Part shown: piece after piece, positions 2,446 through 14,372 of the stretch
How the letters are laid out: the number at the start of each line of letters is the position of its first letter
How positions within the stretch are numbered: position 1 is the first letter of the stretch
Origin: an uncultured Bacilli bacterium
GTDB lineage: Bacteria; Bacillota_I; Bacilli_A; RF39; UBA660
DNA: 42,280 bases
Assembly: GCA_944358735.1 (NCBI GenBank)
Contig: CALVRT010000087.1
Span: 1 to 42,280 of the forward strand
Direction: 5' to 3'
The notes under the pieces: model-generated
Told to the model about the DNA's origin: nothing
Databases searched by the model: none
The model's input: the letters and a program-made list of their open reading frames with translations, nothing else
Position numbers and translations under genes: made by a program

Positions 2446-3648
2446 TTATTTGTTTCCTTTCTTTGTTTGTTTTTTCTTAACATTTTTAATTCTATCTTTA
2501 ATTAAAGTAATTTTATTTTCAATTTGTTCATCACTTAATCCAGTTAAATCTTGATATTTATATAATAAATGGGAAAACTCTTTAGGAATATCTTTTAATT
2601 TAGACAAATCAAAACGATTTAAATCTTCAATATAATCTAAAATTTTTTCAAAATTTAGAAAACTGGAAAAAAAGCGTCCTTTACCTTCATTAATAATAGT
2701 TTTATTATCATAGTTTAAAATATTTAAAGATTGTCCACTATCAAAAATAGGCGCGACATCTAGCCACTTTAAGGTATTAGCATCCCGAATAATCCCAAAA
2801 TTATTTAAATGTCTATCTTCATTAACTAATAAATAATCAATTAGTAGCATATTTTCAATCTTTTCTCTAGCTTTAGCTATTTCTTGTTCTTCTAATAATC
2901 TAACATAAGTATTATAAAGGTCATCCGCATCATAATAAATGTTTAAGATTTGGGCTGCTGAAACAAATTCTGTATCTTGGTTAATAAAACAAGGACACTT
3001 GGAAACTACTTTACCATTAATAACATCTAAAGTATAAGTAGCATGACTAATACCTAATCGTTTACAAATCTCTCCCGCTAAAACTTCATTAAAAGGCTCT
3101 AAAATGTTATCCTTAAAGCTTGCTTTTACTAAATAACGTTTACCATTTTCAATAATCCAACATTTTTTTTGCTTGCCAATTAGTGTATTATCAGGTGATT
3201 TTAAATTAGGTTTTAATTTTTTTTCTTCGTTAAAAAACCAATAATCTTTATTGTCTTCAAAATCATTATCAAAAAAGTTTATTTTTTCATACTTAACTTG
3301 GCTATTATAAGGCCGAAGCCAATAATGTTCGGATAAGGAACAAGCATAATTTTTAAATAATAAATCTTCAGTTTCCATTATTCGGCACTTTTTCATTAAA
3401 AGGTTAATACCATCCCGCCAAAAAGGAATAGACCGATTCTTAAACCACTCATTTAAAAATGGGCGCATATCCCGGCGATACAAGTAATTATTTAAAAAAC
3501 TTATGGGAGTATAATCTAAATTTTTAATCACGTTAATTTTCTTAAAAGTGTGCGAATCGTGGTTATATTCGGTAATTAAAACTTCAACATTTTTATACAT
3601 TAAAACATATTTTTTTATGTTAGGCTTTTTATTGCGCCGCTTTCTCAT
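2446..3648 (-). CDS. HipA-like kinase, paralogue 1
   Basis: A 400-residue protein with a C-terminal HipA-type protein kinase fold: nucleotide-binding Lys in RYLVKASF (K175), catalytic loop LLVNEDRHLNNFG (D278, N283) and metal-binding LDVAPIFDSG (D303). HipA phosphorylates glutamyl-tRNA synthetase in E. coli; the targets of this family are unknown. The N-terminal 130 residues (RSIPFWRDG, SLSEHYWLRP, INFFDNDF) form a domain shared with the neighbouring paralogue and with many HipA-like proteins of gut Firmicutes. No HipB-type HTH antitoxin is adjacent. I prefer the ATG at 3648 (GAGGG site 10 nt upstream) over a GTG at 3654. It heads the operon leading to the ApbE-like gene and rsmE. Confidence 0.8.
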   Translation of the reverse strand: MRKRRNKKPNIKKYVLMYKNVEVLITEYNHDSHTFKKINVIKNLDYTPISFLNNYLYRRDMRPFLNEWFKNRSIPFWRDGINLLMKKCRIMETEDLLFKNYACSLSEHYWLRPYNSQVKYEKINFFDNDFEDNKDYWFFNEEKKLKPNLKSPDNTLIGKQKKCWIIENGKRYLVKASFKDNILEPFNEVLAGEICKRLGISHATYTLDVINGKVVSKCPCFINQDTEFVSAAQILNIYYDADDLYNTYVRLLEEQEIAKAREKIENMLLIDYLLVNEDRHLNNFGIIRDANTLKWLDVAPIFDSGQSLNILNYDNKTIINEGKGRFFSSFLNFEKILDYIEDLNRFDLSKLKDIPKEFSHLLYKYQDLTGLSDEQIENKITLIKDRIKNVKKKQTKKGNK

Positions 3649-3724
3649 ACCCACACTTCCCTCTATAAATGTCTATCTTTATTTTTCTCTTTGTTATAAC
3701 TATATCACAAATTTAATTTTTTTT

Positions 3725-3758
3725 AAATAAAAGAACTATAAATTATCATTTATAATTC
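3725..3758 (-). terminator. terminator between the two HipA-like genes
   Basis: An 11-bp stem (3733-3743 with 3748-3758, one G-U pair, 4-nt loop) contains the stop of paralogue 2 and is followed on the minus strand by a T-rich run. The two paralogues are therefore probably separate transcripts. Confidence 0.6.
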
Positions 3759-4914
3759 CTTTAAGTTTATTAATTCTAGCTAAAAGTAAAGTACATATTT
3801 TATCGATACGTCTATCCGTCATTTTCGTAATATTTTGATATTTATGAAGTAAACTTGCAAACTCTTCTGGCAGGTTATCTAATTTAGATAAATCAAAGCG
3901 GTTAAAATCTTTAATATAATGCGTTATTATATCAAAGTTAAGGGTAGTATAGAAAAAACGGCCTTGTCCATTTATAATCATTTCTTCATCATTATAATCA
4001 ATAATATTTAAAGCCTGTCCACTATCAAAAATAGGGGCGACATCTAGCCACTTTAAAGTATTAACGTCTCTAATAATTCCAAAATTATTTAAATGTCTGT
4101 CTTCATTTAATAAAAGATAATCTAAAATAAACATATTTTCAATTTTTGTTCTTGCATCTTTAATTCCATTTTCTTCTAATATTTTAATATATTCTTCATA
4201 AGCTTTTGTTTTATCACAGTTATTATATAATATTTGATATGCCGGAATAAACTCGGTATCTTTATTAATAAAGCAAGGACATTTGGAAAGGGCTTTAGAA
4301 GAAATAACAATGGTTTCATATTTCGTACAATTAAAGCCTAATTTTTCACAAATCATTGTAGCAAGGACTTCATTAAAAGGCTGCATTACTTCTGTTTTAT
4401 AACCACCTTTTAATAAATATCTCGTCCCATTATCAATAATCCAAGTTTTTTTAAGCCGGCCATCAGTAGTATTATTAGGAGAAATTAAACTAACTTGCAA
4501 ACTAAAATCATAATTGTTAGAAAATGTAGCATTAGTAAAATCTGCTGAATTAAAATCATGGTCAAAGAAATTAATATCTTTATACTCTATTTTACTAGCA
4601 AAAGGTTTTAACCAGTATTGGTCCGATAAAGAAAGTCCAAAAGCTTTATCTAAAAGTTCTTTAGGCGAGCTTATGTTAATTCTAGCGAGTAATATATCTA
4701 AATCATCGCGAAAGGATGGAATACCCCGGCCTTTAAACCAATCTGATAATTGTCTTAAAAATTCTTCATTACCATTTTTTTGATATTCATTTTTTAAAAT
4801 CATAGGCGCATAATCAATATTTTTTATTTCATAGATTTTTGTAAATACAGACAGCTTTTCTTTATATTCAGCTACTAATACTTCGGTATTCTTATTCATT
4901 AATATACATTTCAT
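3736..4914 (-). CDS. HipA-like kinase, paralogue 2
   Basis: A 392-residue protein, co-linear with the previous kinase over its whole length. It keeps the ATP-site Lys (RYLLKGGY, K169), catalytic loop LLLNEDRHLNNFG (D272) and metal site LDVAPIFDSGQ (D297), so it should be an active kinase. The N-terminal accessory domain shows IPSFRDDLD, SLSDQYWLKP and INFFDHDF. A GAGGTGG ribosome binding site lies just before the ATG. Flanking genes are the downstream paralogue and, upstream, a glycosyltransferase; no antitoxin-like small ORF lies between. The pair looks like an old tandem duplication, because the sequences have diverged considerably outside the motifs. Confidence 0.8.
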   Translation of the reverse strand: MKCILMNKNTEVLVAEYKEKLSVFTKIYEIKNIDYAPMILKNEYQKNGNEEFLRQLSDWFKGRGIPSFRDDLDILLARINISSPKELLDKAFGLSLSDQYWLKPFASKIEYKDINFFDHDFNSADFTNATFSNNYDFSLQVSLISPNNTTDGRLKKTWIIDNGTRYLLKGGYKTEVMQPFNEVLATMICEKLGFNCTKYETIVISSKALSKCPCFINKDTEFIPAYQILYNNCDKTKAYEEYIKILEENGIKDARTKIENMFILDYLLLNEDRHLNNFGIIRDVNTLKWLDVAPIFDSGQALNIIDYNDEEMIINGQGRFFYTTLNFDIITHYIKDFNRFDLSKLDNLPEEFASLLHKYQNITKMTDRRIDKICTLLLARINKLKGIINDNL

Positions 4915-6270: not shown

Positions 6271-7044
6271 CTAGTCAATCAATTTTTTGATATTTTCCAG
6301 ACCACTTTTTTCAAGTCTTGATATTTGTGCTTGACTGATACCAATCTCTTCAGCTAGTTCCATTTGTGTTTTACCAACAAGAAAACGCTGAATAATGATA
6401 TATTTCTCTTTTTCTTTTAGTTTTTGTAAAGCTTTTCGTAAAGCTATTTTCATATCTAAATCATACATATCTTCTTCTTTATTTAGTTGGTCTTCTAAAT
6501 AAATAACATCTCCACCATCATTATAAATTGGTTCATACATACTAATAACATCTTTCATAGAATTTAAAGCATCTGCAACTTCATATTCGCTGACTTTAAT
6601 ATATTCCGCGATTTCACGAATCGTTGGTTCTTTACCATGAATGCTTGTTAAGTATTCTCTAGTTTTAACCGCTTTATAAGCTAAATCTTTGATACTTCTA
6701 GCAACTCTAATACTACTATTATCACGTAAATATCTTTTGACTTCTCCTAAAATCATTGGAACAGCATAGGTACTAAAACGTACATTATGACTTAAATCAA
6801 AATTATCAATGGCTTTGATTAAACCAATACAACCTACTTGAAATAAATCATCCATATTATCACACCGACCATTAAATCTTTTCAATATCGATAAAACTAG
6901 TTTTAAATTTCCATTTATTAATTCATTTTTCACCTCTAAATTACCATCTTGTAATTCTTTAAATAACTTCATTTGTTCCTCATTACTTAAAACTTTAATA
7001 TTCGCAGTATTCACGTTAGCAATTTCAACTTTGTAACGTGCCAT
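6271..7044 (-). CDS. sigG: forespore sigma factor SigG
   Basis: Sigma-G is the late forespore sigma factor. The 257 residues follow B. subtilis SigG closely: start MARYKVEIANVNTANIKVLS, region 2 with DDLFQVGCIGLIKAIDNFDL and VRFSTYAVPMILGE, region 3, and region 4 helix-turn-helix KTQMELAEEIGISQAQISRL. The N-terminal KVEI/VL motif and EPIYNDGGD separate it from sigma-F and sigma-B. A GAAAGGAG site precedes the ATG, but it is sequestered in a 14-bp leader hairpin (7046-7089). A forespore-type promoter is possible at 7061-7096. Downstream are the YlmC/YmxH gene and a glycosyltransferase. Sigma-E is encoded 6 kb away rather than immediately upstream as in Bacillus. Confidence 0.95.
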   Translation of the reverse strand: MARYKVEIANVNTANIKVLSNEEQMKLFKELQDGNLEVKNELINGNLKLVLSILKRFNGRCDNMDDLFQVGCIGLIKAIDNFDLSHNVRFSTYAVPMILGEVKRYLRDNSSIRVARSIKDLAYKAVKTREYLTSIHGKEPTIREIAEYIKVSEYEVADALNSMKDVISMYEPIYNDGGDVIYLEDQLNKEEDMYDLDMKIALRKALQKLKEKEKYIIIQRFLVGKTQMELAEEIGISQAQISRLEKSGLENIKKLID

Positions 7045-7045
7045 T

Positions 7046-7089
7046 AAAAATCTCCTTTCACATTCATATTGAACGGAAAAGAGATTTTT
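7046..7089 (-). promoter_or_regulatory. sigG leader hairpin covering the ribosome binding site
   Basis: On the minus strand, AAAAATCTCTTTTC (7076-7089) pairs with GAAAGGAGATTTTT (7046-7059): 14 bp with one G-U pair and a 16-nt loop. The 3' arm contains the whole Shine-Dalgarno and ends one nucleotide before the ATG region, with no T-run after it, so it is a translational control hairpin and not a terminator. A leader hairpin that lowers sigG translation has been reported in B. subtilis. Confidence 0.7.
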
Positions 7090-7096
7090 TATACAT
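7061..7096 (-). promoter_or_regulatory. possible sigma-F/G-type promoter of sigG
   Basis: Minus strand GTATA followed after 15 nt by GTTCAATATG, resembling the sigma-F pattern GYATA-N15-GGNNANANTR with two mismatches in the -10. The -10 falls in the loop of the leader hairpin, so a transcript starting from it would lack the 5' arm. Weak evidence. Confidence 0.3.
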
Positions 7097-7112: not shown

Positions 7113-8054
7113 CTATTTTTTTATTTGTTTTCCTTTATTATATTCTTCATCAAAGACAGAAAAGTTTCTAACAATTTCATTTTTATTTGGTAAATTATCA
7201 AATTCTTTTACGACTGCCATATATCTTTCATCTTGTCTTTTAGTCTCTAAATCATTTAACTTTTGTTTTAAATCTTCAAGTTCTTCTTTCGTTAATTTAT
7301 CTTTACTATAGGTTAAAACAAGACTAATGGCATTTTCCAAAGCATCAATATTAATATCAAAATAATCTTTATTAGCTAAATAAAATTCAGGATTAAAATT
7401 AATTAGTTGAATTTCTTTTAACCAGCGATACATTTGCTCATTTAGCGCACCTTCAAACAAACTTTCTTTAAAACTTTTATTTTGTTTTTCATGCCAAAGT
7501 TCTTTAAAAGCTGTTAATAAGTTGTTTTCAAAGTCAAAAGGGAAATGATAACTATGGTCATTAAATATATTTTTAAATATGTAATTATATTTTCTCAAAA
7601 GGCGCAAATCCCTATTTTTAACAATATTCCCGCCCCAAATAAAATAGCTATCATCAGGATTAGTTATTCCAAGTTTAAAAGCCGTTTTAATTAAAATATA
7701 TTTAATATAGTTATTTCCACGGCCTTGACTTTGACCCCATATATCTGCGATTTCACTTTCTAGTAAATTATGATGGTCTGTTAAAGCCACATAATTATTA
7801 AAGTACTGAACAGTTCGGTTTTTTGTTTCTAAATATTCGGTAAAAGTTATGGTATCCATTCCAATATAAGGCGTACATATTTCCTCAAACATTCCCGGAT
7901 AAACAGTTAATTTAACTATAACTGGATTAAATAATTTACTATCAGAAACACCAGCCATAAAAAGTTTATCAATATAATTAACAATTTCTGGTTTGGCTTC
8001 CTTTATTTCTTCATAAGAAGCAAAGCGCAGAAGCTTAACTAATTTTTCTTCCAT
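7113..8054 (-). CDS. conserved-looking protein of unknown function
   Basis: A 313-residue soluble protein, mostly predicted helix, with a helical Lys/Glu-rich C-terminal segment (about 245-285). I do not recognise a family. Readable segments include YPGMFEEICTPYIGMDTIT, DHHNLLESEIADIWGQSQGR, YIKYILIKTAFKLGITNPDD and FPFDFENNLLTAFKELWHEK. There is no signal peptide or membrane helix. An AGGAG site lies upstream of the ATG. It is the last gene of an apparent operon with yitT, a PAP2 protein and a flavin reductase, and lies 68 nt upstream of sigG. Confidence 0.7.
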   Translation of the reverse strand: MEEKLVKLLRFASYEEIKEAKPEIVNYIDKLFMAGVSDSKLFNPVIVKLTVYPGMFEEICTPYIGMDTITFTEYLETKNRTVQYFNNYVALTDHHNLLESEIADIWGQSQGRGNNYIKYILIKTAFKLGITNPDDSYFIWGGNIVKNRDLRLLRKYNYIFKNIFNDHSYHFPFDFENNLLTAFKELWHEKQNKSFKESLFEGALNEQMYRWLKEIQLINFNPEFYLANKDYFDINIDALENAISLVLTYSKDKLTKEELEDLKQKLNDLETKRQDERYMAVVKEFDNLPNKNEIVRNFSVFDEEYNKGKQIKK

Positions 8055-8062
8055 AGTTACTC

Positions 8063-8680
8063 CTAATCAGTAATTTTAGTAAAATGTGTTTGTCCACATA
8101 TTGGACATATATAATCTACCGGCAAAGTTTCCCCACGATATATATAACCACAAACATCACATTTATAACCACTAACTGCTTTACTCTTTTGATAAGAAGA
8201 TGCTTTTGGTGGGGTTTTACCTTTAAGTTCTTCTTTATAATATTTATAAGTCATCGCTGGTTTATCATTAAACCAAACAGCTTCACTTACTTCGCCTAAA
8301 AACAAAATATGCGTACTAGCGTCAATTTCTTCTTTAACCCGAACGGTAAACAAAGAGGTCATATTATCTTCAATATAAGGAAGTTCTAACAAGTCATATT
8401 TTACATTAAAAGGTTTATATTTATCTTCAAATTCACTACTAAAAAACCCAAACCGACTAATTAAATTCATATCAGCGTTTTCATCTAAAACCGTAACATT
8501 AAACTTTTTACTTTTTCTTATTTGTTTACATGTATAATTATCTTTATTAATAGCTACAACAACCATCTCTGGACTGGCCGCTACTTGTTCAAAGGTATTA
8601 ACAATACAACCCGATTCTTTATCACCTTTCGTGCCAACTAAATACATACCACTAGTTAAATTATTATAAGCTTTTAACAT
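8063..8680 (-). CDS. flavin reductase fused to rubredoxin (Hrb-like)
   Basis: A 205-residue two-domain redox protein. Residues 1-150 are an FMN-binding split-barrel flavin reductase (MLKAYNNLTSGMYLVGTK, VVAINKDNYTC, ISRFGFFSSEFEDKY). Residues 172-204 are a rubredoxin domain with two iron ligand pairs, YKCDVCGY and YICPICGQ. This is the architecture of high-molecular-weight rubredoxin, which passes electrons from NAD(P)H to flavo-diiron oxidases in anaerobes for oxygen or NO detoxification. No flavo-diiron protein is encoded here, so the partner is unknown. It sits in the yitT operon, 6 nt after the PAP2 gene. Confidence 0.88.
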   Translation of the reverse strand: MLKAYNNLTSGMYLVGTKGDKESGCIVNTFEQVAASPEMVVVAINKDNYTCKQIRKSKKFNVTVLDENADMNLISRFGFFSSEFEDKYKPFNVKYDLLELPYIEDNMTSLFTVRVKEEIDASTHILFLGEVSEAVWFNDKPAMTYKYYKEELKGKTPPKASSYQKSKAVSGYKCDVCGYIYRGETLPVDYICPICGQTHFTKITD

Positions 8681-8686
8681 CTTCCT

Positions 8687-9289
8687 TCACTCCTTCAATC
8701 TAATTATTTTAATAAATATGATTAAATACGCTGAAGCAATAAATATGCCAGCTAAAACATCACTTAAATAATGAACACCTAAATATACTCGGCTTAAACT
8801 AATTAATAAAATTAAAATGCTTAATAAAACTGTAAATAGTTTTTTCATTTTTTTACTTAAATTCATTTTCCAAATTATATAAATAATAAAGCCATAAAAA
8901 GCTACTGCCATCATTGTATGACCGCTAGGAAAACTATAACCGTGTTCATCGATTAACATAAGTTCTATTGGTCTTTCTCTAACAAAAATTAATTTTAAAA
9001 TTTGATTTAATAAAAATATAAATATTGTATTTATAAATAACAAAACACCATATTTTTTATTACTTATTATTACTAGAATAATAACTATCACTAGTAAAAC
9101 AAATACTGGACTCGCAAACGTTGTTATCATTTTCCAAAACCCACTAATTGAAATACTAGATAGGATGTGATAAGCGCCCATATCAATATTATAAAATATG
9201 TCATAATGAACGCCAATCGCGGTTAAAATGAATAGAATTATTAAAATGATAACACTTACCCACTCGATATTCTTTTTTATCAATTGCAT
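8687..9289 (-). CDS. PAP2-family membrane phosphatase
   Basis: A 200-residue polytopic protein with about six membrane helices. It has the three phosphatase motifs: KLIFVRERP, SFPSGHTM, and SLSRVYLGVHYLSD. Family members dephosphorylate undecaprenyl pyrophosphate, phosphatidic acid or phosphatidylglycerol phosphate at the membrane; the substrate here cannot be read from sequence. AGGAGG is 5 nt before the ATG. It lies 8 nt after yitT. Confidence 0.9.
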   Translation of the reverse strand: MQLIKKNIEWVSVIILIILFILTAIGVHYDIFYNIDMGAYHILSSISISGFWKMITTFASPVFVLLVIVIILVIISNKKYGVLLFINTIFIFLLNQILKLIFVRERPIELMLIDEHGYSFPSGHTMMAVAFYGFIIYIIWKMNLSKKMKKLFTVLLSILILLISLSRVYLGVHYLSDVLAGIFIASAYLIIFIKIIRLKE

Positions 9290-9297
9290 AATTCCTC

Positions 9298-10164
9298 CTA
9301 TTTCTCAATATCAGGGATTTTTTTAATATGGTTACCAATAACATCAGTAACATCAGTAATTGCAACAAAAGAAGAAACATCAGCATTTTGAACAATATCC
9401 CGTAATTCCTGAATTTCTAAACGAGTAATTACGGTATAAAGAATAGATTTTTCACTTTGTTCAACCATCCCTTTACCAGAGATAATTGTAACAGTTCTTC
9501 CAAGTCTTTTAAATATTTCACCGGATATTTGTTCTTCTTTACTAGTTATTATCAATGCTGCTTTTGCTTGTTCTAGGCCTTCAGAAACAATATCAATTAT
9601 TTTAAAAGTTATGAAATAAGTTAGTAGTGAATATAAAGCTCTATCAATACCAAAAACAAATATCGCACTACCATAAATAAAGATATTAAAAATAAAAACT
9701 ATTTGTCCAACTGATAAACTTACGTTTTTACTTAAGGTAATGGCTACTGCTTCTGTTCCATCTAAACAGCCACCTTCTTTAATAACAAGGCCGACTCCAA
9801 CGCCTAATAGTAAGCCACCATAAACTAAAGCAAGTAAAATATCATCAGTCACTTCCTCAAACGTACTAAAAAATTCAAGTAAAACAGAAAAGACTATCAT
9901 TCCATACGCGGCTTTCACCAAAAATTTTTTTCCTAATTGTCGCCAACCAAGAATTAAAAATGGAATATTTAAAACAATGATATAAATACTTAATGAGCCA
10001 CCAAATATTTTGTTTAAAATAATGGATACACCATTTAATCCCCCATCAATAATAGAGTTAGGAATTAAAAATATTTCTAAAGCCGCGGCCGCCATAGCTG
10101 CTCCCAAAGTAATAAAAATTACTGATGGCATTTGTTTTAAACACCATAAAAATTTATCTTTCAT
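9298..10164 (-). CDS. YitT-family membrane protein (DUF161 + DUF2179)
   Basis: A 288-residue protein with five or six N-terminal membrane helices (IFLIPNSIIDGGLNGVSIIL, VVIKEGGCLDGTEAVAI) and a cytoplasmic DUF2179 domain from about residue 205 (AALIITSKEEQISGEIFKRL, VTIISGKGMV). The YitT family is large in Bacillota; its function is not settled. The ATG at 10164 has an AAGGTGAT site and lies just downstream of a TATAAT at 10183-10188. The open frame up to 10212 would start inside that promoter and is rejected. It is the first gene of a four-gene operon. Confidence 0.88.
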   Translation of the reverse strand: MKDKFLWCLKQMPSVIFITLGAAMAAAALEIFLIPNSIIDGGLNGVSIILNKIFGGSLSIYIIVLNIPFLILGWRQLGKKFLVKAAYGMIVFSVLLEFFSTFEEVTDDILLALVYGGLLLGVGVGLVIKEGGCLDGTEAVAITLSKNVSLSVGQIVFIFNIFIYGSAIFVFGIDRALYSLLTYFITFKIIDIVSEGLEQAKAALIITSKEEQISGEIFKRLGRTVTIISGKGMVEQSEKSILYTVITRLEIQELRDIVQNADVSSFVAITDVTDVIGNHIKKIPDIEK

Positions 10165-10182
10165 AAATACATCACCTTCTAA

Positions 10183-10211
10183 ATTATATCGCATTTTATC
10201 GTTCATTTCCA
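10183..10211 (-). promoter_or_regulatory. sigma-A promoter of the yitT operon
   Basis: Minus strand TGGAAA (10206-10211), 17-bp spacer, TATAAT (10183-10188). It gives a leader of about 12 nt and fixes the yitT start at 10164. Confidence 0.55.
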
Positions 10212-10230
10212 CTACTATTAGAAAATTTAA

Positions 10231-10259
10231 AAGAAAAAGCCATAATTATTAAAATTATG
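10231..10259 (-). terminator. weak terminator after the sulfotransferase gene
   Basis: CATAATT/AATTATG 7-bp stem (10241-10247 with 10253-10259) followed on the minus strand by CTTTTTCTTTT. AT-only stem, hence low confidence. Confidence 0.4.
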
Positions 10260-10275
10260 ACCTTATAGTAAGATT

Positions 10276-11976
10276 TTATTCAAACCAATTTTCGTACTCA
10301 TATTTAAATACTCGATATGAATATTTTTTAGCTGGATACTCAAAATGTTTAATTAATTGTCCATCACTATCATATTCTGCAAAACTATGTGACATCCCAC
10401 TACTAGCAACCATATTACCATTATCCATATCCTGAACACTACTAACAATACTAGAGTAATCTAAATCAACTGATTCTACTAATTCATAAGTATTTTCATT
10501 TTCATCAACTAAATACTTATAATACATTGATTTTTCACCATTTTTATAATCTCCAGTACCTTCATAGTTAGACCAATCAAAGAATGGTCTAGTGCGGCTC
10601 GCTGAATAATTATTGTTATACATTACTAAATAATACTGCCCATCATCTAAACTATCGTCTTCTTCATAAGTGATAGTATGTTGTCCAGCATTTGAAGTAA
10701 AATCACCAACTTTATCTAAAAGTAAATCTTCATATTCTGTGTCTTCATACATTGAAGGGTCAGCGATTAAATATTTAATAGTTGGATTACTATCATAATC
10801 AGACAGATAAATTACTGTACTTAATTCTCTTGAAGATAAAACAATGTCATCATCATTAACGATACTTAAGCTATTTAAATGAAGCCAGTCTAATTCGTCA
10901 CCACCATAAGTGTTCCCACCTTCAGGGCTTTCAGCCATATCATACATTGCTGGAAGTAAGTCTCTAAAATCAACTAAATCAGTAACTTTGCCACTTTCTA
11001 AATCTAATGAAATAACGTGGTCTTCAATCGTATCTGTACCAAGTTTATTAGCTAAAATAAGTAAACGATTATTATCTTCATCATAAACATAATCATGGTG
11101 CATTTCATAACCATCTAAAGTATAAGCCTCTTCAATCTTGCCCATAGGATTAACAGAGATTAAAGTATTTTTTGAGTTACTATATACTAAATTATTATCG
11201 ATATTTATCACTCTGTCACTACGATAACCGTCTAAAACAAGTTCAGCTCTAAACGTTCCGTTATTATCGTATACATAAGTATTAGCTGTATAATTTTTAT
11301 CCCAACCTAGGAAAGTGTATAAACCATCAGCTAGTTCTTCTGTACTATCGCCATCTTCAGTATCAATAGTTACTTCAATATTTTCATTAGTTGGTAATTT
11401 AGGAATATTTAATTCGAGTGTTTGTTCATTAATTACTTCATCACCATCAGTAAGTTCTAACTTTAATGTGTTAGTGTATCCTGGTACTAGCCCAATAATT
11501 TGATAAGCATAACTACCATCAGTACCGTTATTGACAGCTACTCTTTCAAAATCAGCAATATCTTCATCATCAACACTTATTTTATAATTTAAATCATAAT
11601 CAGCGCTTTCATCAGTAAAATAAATGTTGAGACCTGTTGTATTAGTTCCATAAGGATTTACAATTAAAAGTGGAGCTTCAAAAGTATAATATCCTGACTC
11701 AAGTCTAGTGTCAATTAATTCATCCATAACTTTTTGATAATTCATATTAAAAATACTAATATTTTCGTTACGGCTAACTGTTAAAACATTGTCCCCTATA
11801 TCATTATTGTCAGTTAAAGTTGTATGTGAAGCTATCCAGTCATATTCAGTTGCTTTTTGCTCAATATAACCATCATACCACTTTTTGATGCCAAAACCGG
11901 CAGCTACTAATAATGCGATTACAATGATTGCAATAACAATGATTTTTAAAATTTTTTTCTTTTTTTTCTTTTCCAT
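10276..11976 (-). CDS. membrane-anchored arylsulfate sulfotransferase (AssT)
   Basis: A 566-residue protein with a Lys-rich start and one membrane helix (about 11-31), the rest outside the cell. It follows arylsulfate sulfotransferases: an N-terminal beta-sandwich, then a beta-propeller. Matches to E. coli AssT active-site residues are visible: His294 in EMHHDYVYD, His366 in DWLHLNSLSI, Arg383 in VLSSRELSTV, and the nucleophile His433 in NAGQHTITYE. The enzyme moves sulfate from one phenolic sulfate to another phenol without PAPS. E. coli AssT is periplasmic; here a membrane anchor replaces the cleaved signal. The ATG at 11976 has GGGTGA just upstream; a TTG at 11988 is less likely. Monocistronic. 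Confidence 0.88.
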   Translation of the reverse strand: MEKKKKKKILKIIVIAIIVIALLVAAGFGIKKWYDGYIEQKATEYDWIASHTTLTDNNDIGDNVLTVSRNENISIFNMNYQKVMDELIDTRLESGYYTFEAPLLIVNPYGTNTTGLNIYFTDESADYDLNYKISVDDEDIADFERVAVNNGTDGSYAYQIIGLVPGYTNTLKLELTDGDEVINEQTLELNIPKLPTNENIEVTIDTEDGDSTEELADGLYTFLGWDKNYTANTYVYDNNGTFRAELVLDGYRSDRVINIDNNLVYSNSKNTLISVNPMGKIEEAYTLDGYEMHHDYVYDEDNNRLLILANKLGTDTIEDHVISLDLESGKVTDLVDFRDLLPAMYDMAESPEGGNTYGGDELDWLHLNSLSIVNDDDIVLSSRELSTVIYLSDYDSNPTIKYLIADPSMYEDTEYEDLLLDKVGDFTSNAGQHTITYEEDDSLDDGQYYLVMYNNNYSASRTRPFFDWSNYEGTGDYKNGEKSMYYKYLVDENENTYELVESVDLDYSSIVSSVQDMDNGNMVASSGMSHSFAEYDSDGQLIKHFEYPAKKYSYRVFKYEYENWFE

Positions 11977-12063
11977 TTTCTCACCCAATTACACTATCTC
12001 ATACAATTGTGAAAATTTTATGTAAAAATTTGTAAATATTTTCATTTTTGTGTTATTGCGCTT

Positions 12064-12968: not shown

Positions 12969-13653
12969 ACTTGTCTAAATTCTGAAGTTTTCTAATAACC
13001 TTTTTCTCAATTCTCGAAATATAAGACTGACTAATGCCTAATAAACTAGCAACATCTTTTTGCGTCATTTCTTCACTACCAAAAAGGCCATAACGAAGTA
13101 TCATAATTTTTTTATCACGTTCACTCAATTTACTTATCTCTTTATAGAGTAATTTCTTCTCAATTTCTTTTTCTAATCCTCTAGTAACAATATCATCATC
13201 AGTTCCAAGTATATCTTCTAAATGTAGTTCATTTCCTTCTGAATCAAAACTTAAATTATCTTCAAAACTAATTTCCCCTCTTCTTCTTTTATTCTTCCTT
13301 AAAAACATTAATATTTCATTATCAATACAACGAGAGGCATAAGTAGCTAGTTTAATATTTTTATCAAGTTTATAAGTATTAACCCCTTTAATTAATCCTA
13401 CACTACCAATACTAACTAAATCTTCTAAATCAACACCTGTATTTTCATATTTTTTAGCCAAAAAAACAACTAACCTTAAATTATGTTCAATCAGTTTAGC
13501 TCTAGCTACTTTATCACCATCCATTGATTTTTGAACATACATAACTTCTTCTTCTTTTGTTAAAGGTTCGGGTAACTTATCACTACTACCAATAAAAAAA
13601 ACATTTTCTTCGCCTAAAAAAATTCGAATAATTTCCTTAATTTTTGCTAACAT
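12967..13653 (-). CDS. sigE: mother-cell sigma factor SigE (pro-sigma-E)
   Basis: Early mother-cell sigma factor, made as an inactive precursor. 228 residues: N-terminal pro-sequence (MLAKIKEIIRIFLGEE and the FFIGSSDKLPEPL junction, near the SpoIIGA cleavage region of B. subtilis), region 2 (LIEHNLRLVVFLAKKYENTG, DLEDLVSIGSVGLIKGVNTY, LATYASRCIDNEILMFLR), LHLEDILGTDDDIV, and region 4 (TQKDVASLLGISQSYISRIE). It resembles SigK too, but the adjacent spoIIGA identifies it as sigE. The ATG lies within the 3' end of spoIIGA (7-nt overlap) with GGAGG inside spoIIGA, so translation is coupled. A sigG copy is not downstream; the convergent collagen-like gene is. Confidence 0.95.
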   Translation of the reverse strand: MLAKIKEIIRIFLGEENVFFIGSSDKLPEPLTKEEEVMYVQKSMDGDKVARAKLIEHNLRLVVFLAKKYENTGVDLEDLVSIGSVGLIKGVNTYKLDKNIKLATYASRCIDNEILMFLRKNKRRRGEISFEDNLSFDSEGNELHLEDILGTDDDIVTRGLEKEIEKKLLYKEISKLSERDKKIMILRYGLFGSEEMTQKDVASLLGISQSYISRIEKKVIRKLQNLDK

Positions 13654-14372
13654 ATAATATCCTCCATTTCCTTATTTAATAATACTTCAGCCCCTTCAAT
13701 ATTCATATTATCACTAAAGCCAAGTAAAACTTTGTCAAAAACTTGGGTATTAATAATTACTTTTTTTACCTTGATACACTCTAATAAGCTAGTTCCACTA
13801 ATTGTTTTATAAGGTACGAGGATAGTGTTTTTACCAAAATTATTTTTTAAATTAGTAATAATCACTAAATTTCCTTTATGTTTTAAAGTATTACCACTAT
13901 CTAAATAACCTGTTAAACTAATACATTTACTACCTATATAAAGTAAAACATCATAATATTTATTTTGTCTATTTGTAAATAATTTCATTTGTTTAATATA
14001 AAAATATATAATAAATGGACAAATTATAAATAAAAATAAAAGTGATTTATAGTCAAAATAAAGTTTTAAAAAATATAAAAAGCCACCAATACTTATACTA
14101 ACAAAATAAAAAACAACAATATTATAAACGGTATATCTAATACTTTTATAATAAAAAGTAAATAAATTCATTAAAATACTTAAGTAAACCTTTAAAATTA
14201 AAAGTTGGATACTATTAATATTTAAAAATAAAATAATAATACTTAAACTACCAATAAAAGCGCCAACTAATAAATTAAATATTTTGGCATTTCTTTTAAG
14301 TAAAATACTGGTTGTCATTAATATTAAAAAATCTAAAAAGAAATTAAATAAAAAAAGTATTTCAATATACAT
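13647..14372 (-). CDS. spoIIGA: pro-sigma-E processing peptidase SpoIIGA
   Basis: SpoIIGA is a membrane aspartic protease in the septum that cleaves pro-sigma-E after a forespore signal (SpoIIR). 241 residues: about five membrane helices in the first 130 residues, then a cytoplasmic protease domain with the single catalytic Asp in SLTGYLDSGNTL (D158), as in the family's D-T/S-G-N motif, followed by VPYKTISGTSLLECIKVKKV. The ATG at 14372 has GGTGA 5 nt upstream; the TTG at 14384 is less likely. It has its own promoter at 14394-14421 and overlaps sigE. Confidence 0.93.
   Translation of the reverse strand: MYIEILFLFNFFLDFLILMTTSILLKRNAKIFNLLVGAFIGSLSIIILFLNINSIQLLILKVYLSILMNLFTFYYKSIRYTVYNIVVFYFVSISIGGFLYFLKLYFDYKSLLFLFIICPFIIYFYIKQMKLFTNRQNKYYDVLLYIGSKCISLTGYLDSGNTLKHKGNLVIITNLKNNFGKNTILVPYKTISGTSLLECIKVKKVIINTQVFDKVLLGFSDNMNIEGAEVLLNKEMEDIIC

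Follow-up and report, generated by a model that had tools for sequence, protein, structure and literature searches.

The ribosome binding site of sigG in this uncultured bacterium is held in a long hairpin whose 5′ arm is the spacer of the gene's own putative forespore promoter. We think it likely, with good confidence, that this hairpin is a read-through lock: RNA arriving from upstream would be silent, and RNA started at the forespore promoter would be translated. What is new here is that, across related genomes, the hairpin tracks the exposure of sigG to read-through, and the evolutionary evidence for insulation that sequence comparison provides appears unusually strong. The analysis starts from a stretch of 42,280 nucleotides, hereafter the window, in which the following features are relevant.

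6271 to 7044, minus strand: sigG coding sequence, 257 aa, with its ATG at 7042-7044 (open reading frame call and NCBIfam models)
7046 to 7066, minus strand: 3′ arm of the hairpin, with 7060 bulged, holding the whole Shine-Dalgarno sequence (SD) (fold)
7051 to 7056, minus strand: SD core AGGAGA, wholly within the 3′ arm and paired with UCUCUU at 7079-7084 (sequence and fold)
7058, minus strand: predicted transcription start, within about 2 nt either way, placed from the -10; its leader of about 14 nt would lack the 5′ arm
7065 to 7071, minus strand: -10 element CAATATG, at the hairpin apex (promoter scan)
7067 to 7069, minus strand: loop of 3 nt (fold)
7070 to 7089, minus strand: 5′ arm of the hairpin (anti-SD); its part from 7072 to 7089 coincides exactly with the promoter spacer of 18 nt
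7090 to 7094, minus strand: -35 element GTATA of a promoter of the sigma-F/sigma-G type (promoter scan)
7113 to 8054, minus strand: gene for a 313-aa protein directly upstream of sigG, co-directional, stopping 68 nt before it
8063 to 11988, minus strand: further co-directional genes (flavin reductase-rubredoxin, PAP2, YitT, arylsulfotransferase)
12970 to 13671, minus strand: frame for a sigE/K-like sigma factor, read from stop to stop and lying some 6 kb upstream of sigG

The hairpin comprises 14 outer pairs, a 1-nt bulge, 6 inner pairs and the loop, 20 pairs in all, with an A-run opposite a T-run at the base of the stem. The window sequence from the -35 through the start codon folds at -20.8 kcal/mol, and a 91-nt fold reaches -24.4 kcal/mol (z -5.15), which none of 200 shuffles equalled; when only the spacer is shuffled, z is -6.8. 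Rfam has no match in the window at the gathering score. The first-pass annotation had described a 14-bp stem over the complete SD of sigG in the 44 nt from 7046 to 7089, and the minus-strand fold has exactly these limits, with the 14 outer pairs extended by the six inner ones and the SD core inside the 3′ arm. It had also put the -10 in the loop: the element is indeed at the apex, but it takes in the apical stem as well as the loop.

With the promoter spacer as its 5′ arm and the -10 at its apex, the hairpin is predicted to lock read-through RNA and to be missing from RNA of the sigG promoter. The predicted opening of the SD is 0.00 in the former and 0.95 in the latter, and a start at 7080 or further 3′ would free the SD (predicted opening 0.60-0.95). 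In the mechanism we propose, transcripts entering sigG from upstream would carry the promoter spacer, which would pair with the SD and block translation; this would keep vegetative cells and the wrong compartment free of sigma-G. Forespore initiation, by sigma-F and later by sigma-G, would take place at the promoter whose -10 forms the apex; this RNA would begin 3′ of the anti-SD arm, could not form the stem and would be translated.

The sigG protein has SigG models as its best NCBIfam matches (PRK08215, 357 bits; TIGR02850, 345 bits; SigF just 266 bits), with both SigG scores under their curated cut-offs. The genome assembly is 1.39 Mb in 104 contigs and 88% complete. Close relatives go by the labels uncultured Bacilli, Mollicutes or Candidatus Coprosoma, and the genome probably belongs to the RF39-type group, for which the accessible text of PMC10868615 predicts spore formation. 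The 313-aa protein has no match in Pfam or NCBIfam, and a pattern scan gives no terminator between its gene and sigG. The co-directional genes behind it are possible sources of read-through. The first-pass annotation had named the yitT operon as the source; YitT does lie upstream and in the same direction, but the nearest gene is that of the 313-aa protein, and YitT is three genes further. Other genes separate the sigE-like frame from sigG, and no adjacent sigE operon serves here as source of read-through.

Some observations concern the window and sigG more broadly. Two ORFs that resemble each other, 402 and 392 aa long, lie in tandem on the minus strand (2446-3654 and 3736-4914) and have in common the motif EDRHLNNFGIIRD, which we take to be reminiscent of HipA-like kinases; the second has no NCBIfam match. 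Among the relatives, one sigG has an internal TAA (G081:C17:7681-8448), and this genome may possibly have lost sporulation. Three genomes (G050, G353 and G373) have two sigG-like matches each at E<=1e-60, which may represent mixed bins or duplications.

We collected leaders from 110 of the 119 sigG places of the family (nine were left out, six of which were later added as L335-L340) and from 80 loci. These 191 records, the window's own copy included, gave 175 distinct leaders, and 173 once two with less than 90 nt upstream (L035, L046) were dropped. The scan found a forespore-type promoter in all 173, with a spacer of 18 nt in 150 and of 17 nt in 23. Its -35 reads GAATA in 70 leaders, GTATA in 67, GTTTA in 21 and otherwise in 15; the -10 keeps its C in 172 of the 173 and the A at its fifth position in every one. 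For L146 and L166 at least, with 37 and 53 nt to the start, the scan put the promoter in the wrong place; both are counted as called. A strict promoter pattern gave 10 places in the window's own genome and 5 for a reversed control, too few for use.

A leader was scored as locked when its read-through fold was at or below -11 kcal/mol, with an SD unpaired probability below 0.4 and z at or below -2. This is the case for 88 of the 173 leaders, including L028 and L169, scored as locks despite an SD misplaced by the SD finder. The median opening of the SD in locked leaders is 0.003 in read-through RNA (n=88) and 0.885 in the predicted own RNA (81 of the 88 measurable, 3 of them below 0.5).

Compensatory changes in relatives, which the first-pass annotation had set as a check, are present: the two arms covary both when swapped and in a fixed register. 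The native arms of the 88 locked leaders fold at -17.75 kcal/mol on average, against -11.90 (sd 0.28) with the 5′ arms permuted (z -21), and none of 10,000 permutations went as low as the native mean. The fixed register was applied, with no fitting, to 59 locked leaders of equal -10-to-SD distance, a set chosen after a variable-length alignment had given no structure. In these, pairing is 77.7%. Covariation is 0.199, a value that none of 500 shuffles reached (0.149 +/-0.009), and sliding the register gave 0.127 at most. Double-changed cells number 52 against the 28.8 of the shuffles; neither the pairs with a double change, of which there are 8, nor the pair types are more numerous than in shuffles of the same set. 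The covariation signal is absent from the 40 unlocked leaders of the same spacing. The variable-length alignment (MAFFT and RNAalifold, 60 leaders) yielded no structure and a sequence-only model because the register slips. These results bear on another reading, very improbable in our view, by which the palindrome acts as DNA, as the operator of a regulator at the promoter. The inverted repeat is near-perfect and centred on the -10, as an operator might be, but its arms vary freely in sequence with pairing retained, promoters without a palindrome are otherwise identical, and its presence follows read-through exposure.

This last pattern emerged on reading the leaders, where the unlocked ones often have a terminator ending right at the -35, and many of those with neither lock nor terminator have a divergent upstream gene. 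Lock and terminator occur together in 4 of the 173 leaders, the lock alone in 84, the terminator alone in 32 and neither in 53 (OR 0.079, p 4e-8). When the upstream gene is co-directional and no terminator intervenes, which we call exposed, 71 of 81 leaders are locked. The lock is found in only 6 of the 42 leaders with a terminator before the -35 (4 of 33 for terminators <=-6, 2 of 9 for weak ones) and in 1 of the 26 with a divergent neighbour; orientation was unresolved for 24 of the 173 (10 locked, 14 not; 3 with a terminator). Median fold energies are -17.6 kcal/mol for exposed leaders, -5.4 for those with a terminator and -6.3 for divergent ones. All 18 variants of thresholds and orientation gave an OR of 9-49 with p <=7e-10. 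The exceptions are the 10 exposed leaders of the 81 that are unlocked and 7 insulated leaders that are locked. Since sigE adjoins sigG in only 12 of the 173 family leaders, the lock would answer to exposure and not to sigE as such. As judged from these leaders, the lock is kept mainly where upstream transcripts could reach sigG.

The association was also followed on a tree of sigG proteins (n=172; L134, with no full protein, is absent). It shows no fewer than 42 changes of the lock and no fewer than 35 of exposure, counts that are rough given a quick tree from a 257-residue protein. Of the independent pairs with contrasting exposure, 16 are supported; on average the lock differed in the same way in 11.4 of these and in the opposite way in 0.0 (median p 0.00098). 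The terminator idea arose from these same leaders, and only a further sample consists of leaders not used for forming it. Its criteria were fixed before scoring. It comprised 39 of the newly listed + strand places, less 8 duplicates and one leader without promoter call (L445, which appears locked by eye), and 27 of the resulting 30 were resolved. Exposed leaders were locked in 14 cases and unlocked in 2, insulated ones locked in 2 and unlocked in 9 (OR 31.5, p 8.5e-4). One exposed leader scored as called, without lock, has a misplaced promoter and appears locked by eye (L461). As for the extra leaders of the family, four are locked and without a terminator <=-6 (L335, L338, L339, L343), one is divergent and unlocked (L336), one is exposed and just under the lock threshold (L337), and one has both terminator and lock, contrary to the rule (L340).

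It is therefore hardly credible that chance or shared ancestry explains the hairpin, with A+T-rich arms pairing accidentally with a conserved SD and relatedness driving the statistics. The leaders are A+T-rich, and the A-run and T-run at the stem base are what such an accident might produce, but this account is contradicted by the spacer-only shuffling in the window, by the independent pairs (about 11 to 0), by the further sample and by the background: other SD-bearing starts of the window and the 80 loci score as locks in 7 of 223 cases, against 35 of 78 sigG starts.

A more serious rival is termination. As an intrinsic terminator or attenuator, the hairpin would end read-through transcription immediately ahead of the sigG start codon, and the pairing of the SD would be a by-product or a second layer. 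Like an intrinsic terminator, it has a U-rich 3′ side, and across the family it alternates with classical terminators, as expected of a substitute. Runs of at least 6 T between SD and start occur in 50 of the 88 locked leaders and in 2 of the 85 unlocked ones, so termination could contribute. Yet the SD lies within the stem, and the U-tract is short and its residues are paired: the window has five T in a row there, the pattern scan gives no terminator hit, and 19 of the 88 locked leaders have runs of at most 4 T. The T-run is missing from locks found in other families (e.g., L354, L356, L368), which argues for SD pairing as the common feature. We thus regard termination as unlikely to be the main function, and favour the promoter-dependent switch that the first-pass annotation had proposed, which is well supported by the covariation, the conservation of the promoter and the occurrence of the hairpin chiefly in leaders that read-through could reach.

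The other families of the class were represented by 31 of 36 places, of which L371 and L374 were lost (start not found), and L363 and L370, without promoter call, count as having no lock. Of these 29 leaders, 12 score as locked, with quite different stems (e.g., L352, L354, L356, L357, L360, L368). A weak hairpin of 7 bp in one family mostly stays below the lock criteria, and further leaders do not qualify. The upstream gene is co-directional in all 29, mostly of 600-760 nt, a length from which it is possibly sigE. With only 12 locks among 29 co-directional leaders, exposure is no guarantee of a lock there. The locks outside the family may have a common origin or may have arisen by convergence. 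In one family (L361, L364, L366, L367, L369), a different conserved inverted repeat, GTTGC...GCAAC, surrounds the -10 and in some leaders adjoins the SD without covering it.

A covariance-model search of the window's own genome gave 57.4 bits for sigG, 26.3 for the reverse strand of sigG and 25.0 for the best match elsewhere. In 58 relatives the lock model had a few matches outside sigG, and those inspected resemble ordinary forespore-type promoters or repeats, with one exception (L409); no general second user of the lock was established in the own genome and these relatives. The exception, G012:C24:2113-2152 on the minus strand, scores 40.5 bits; its strong hairpin precedes a small ORF whose product begins MYYNNYYGNN, possibly a second gene with the same device. 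Another match outside sigG reaches 42.6 bits (G037:C34:696-735). Near-equal matches on eight contigs of one genome, some near contig starts, look like a multicopy repeat or a mobile element (G017, C2, C5, C14, C16, C19, C32, C34 and C39). In the own genome, a forespore-type promoter before an ORF starting MNISIRKH has its -35 within the tail of an upstream terminator-like hairpin, which is the terminator-abutting arrangement on another gene (C42:11569-11610, minus strand; L381, L419).

Protection of a ribosome binding site from read-through is known from the transposase genes of IS10 and IS50 and from genes e and soc of phage T4. As in these, the promoter lies inside or 3′ of the 5′ arm, such that only outside transcripts are locked. 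Genes and sequences are unrelated, and the sigG hairpin works alike without being a member: the resemblance is one of logic only. The accessible text of PMC8450116 treats other kinds of control of transposases.

The first-pass annotation had compared the hairpin to one in Bacillus subtilis that damps translation and delays sigma-G. By the accessible text of PMC5942855, that one is a different structure, a small 5-bp hairpin (-6.2 kcal/mol) inside the PsigG transcript, which always damps translation 2-4-fold; the same text argues against a delaying mechanism for sigG transcription. Both hairpins occlude the sigG ribosome binding site. Constitutive damping of the normal sigG mRNA is nevertheless an improbable role for the hairpin of the window, since its 5′ arm, between -35 and -10, falls outside the own RNA provided that the promoter is correctly placed, the predicted SD opening in that RNA is high, and damping gives no reason for a dependence on terminators or on the orientation of the neighbour.

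The real counterpart in B. subtilis is another, large hairpin of 20 or more bp, for which a block on the translation of spoIIGA-sigE read-through has been proposed (Masuda 1988 and Sun 1991, cited by the accessible text of PMC5942855). The switch idea is thus not new for sigG. The two probably share the gene, and they share a long stem (here 20 bp) proposed to act on read-through RNA only; the B. subtilis stem cannot form in the PsigG transcript, and that of the window is predicted to be absent from the own-promoter transcript. As far as the large hairpin is described there, they differ in sequence and in the source of read-through, here five other genes and not a neighbouring sigE; in the window the 5′ arm is the promoter spacer and the -10 the apex. 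Early read-through of sigG from sigE was reported to be untranslated in B. subtilis (accessible text of PMC2530871). By the accessible text of PMC5942855, the read-through RNA is not needed there, and these texts hold no evidence of selection for the large hairpin. In the open-licence literature, outside which most subscription papers lie, we found no report of locks, terminators and divergent neighbours replacing each other, nor of the lock in this group.

Taken as a rule, a reading to which we lean with some reserve, the 17-18 nt between the -35 and the -10 of the sigG forespore promoter would be a free slot, repeatedly turned into an anti-SD and back, and sigG could never do without insulation, be it by a divergent neighbour, by a terminator that abuts the -35 or by a translational lock for which the promoter itself supplies the sequence. 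In this rule the changes of lock (at least 42) and of exposure (at least 35) on the tree would have gone in step. If so, leak-proofing of a developmental sigma factor would be a strong and directly measurable selective force. Differences in gene neighbourhood amount to dozens of repeats of one natural experiment, with the lock mostly present if a leak is possible and gone if sigG is otherwise insulated, which makes the cost of leaky sigma-G testable. A promoter spacer that doubles as anti-SD would also provide a design rule for leak-proof promoters, and the control of sporulation would be extended to uncultured Bacilli with reduced genomes.
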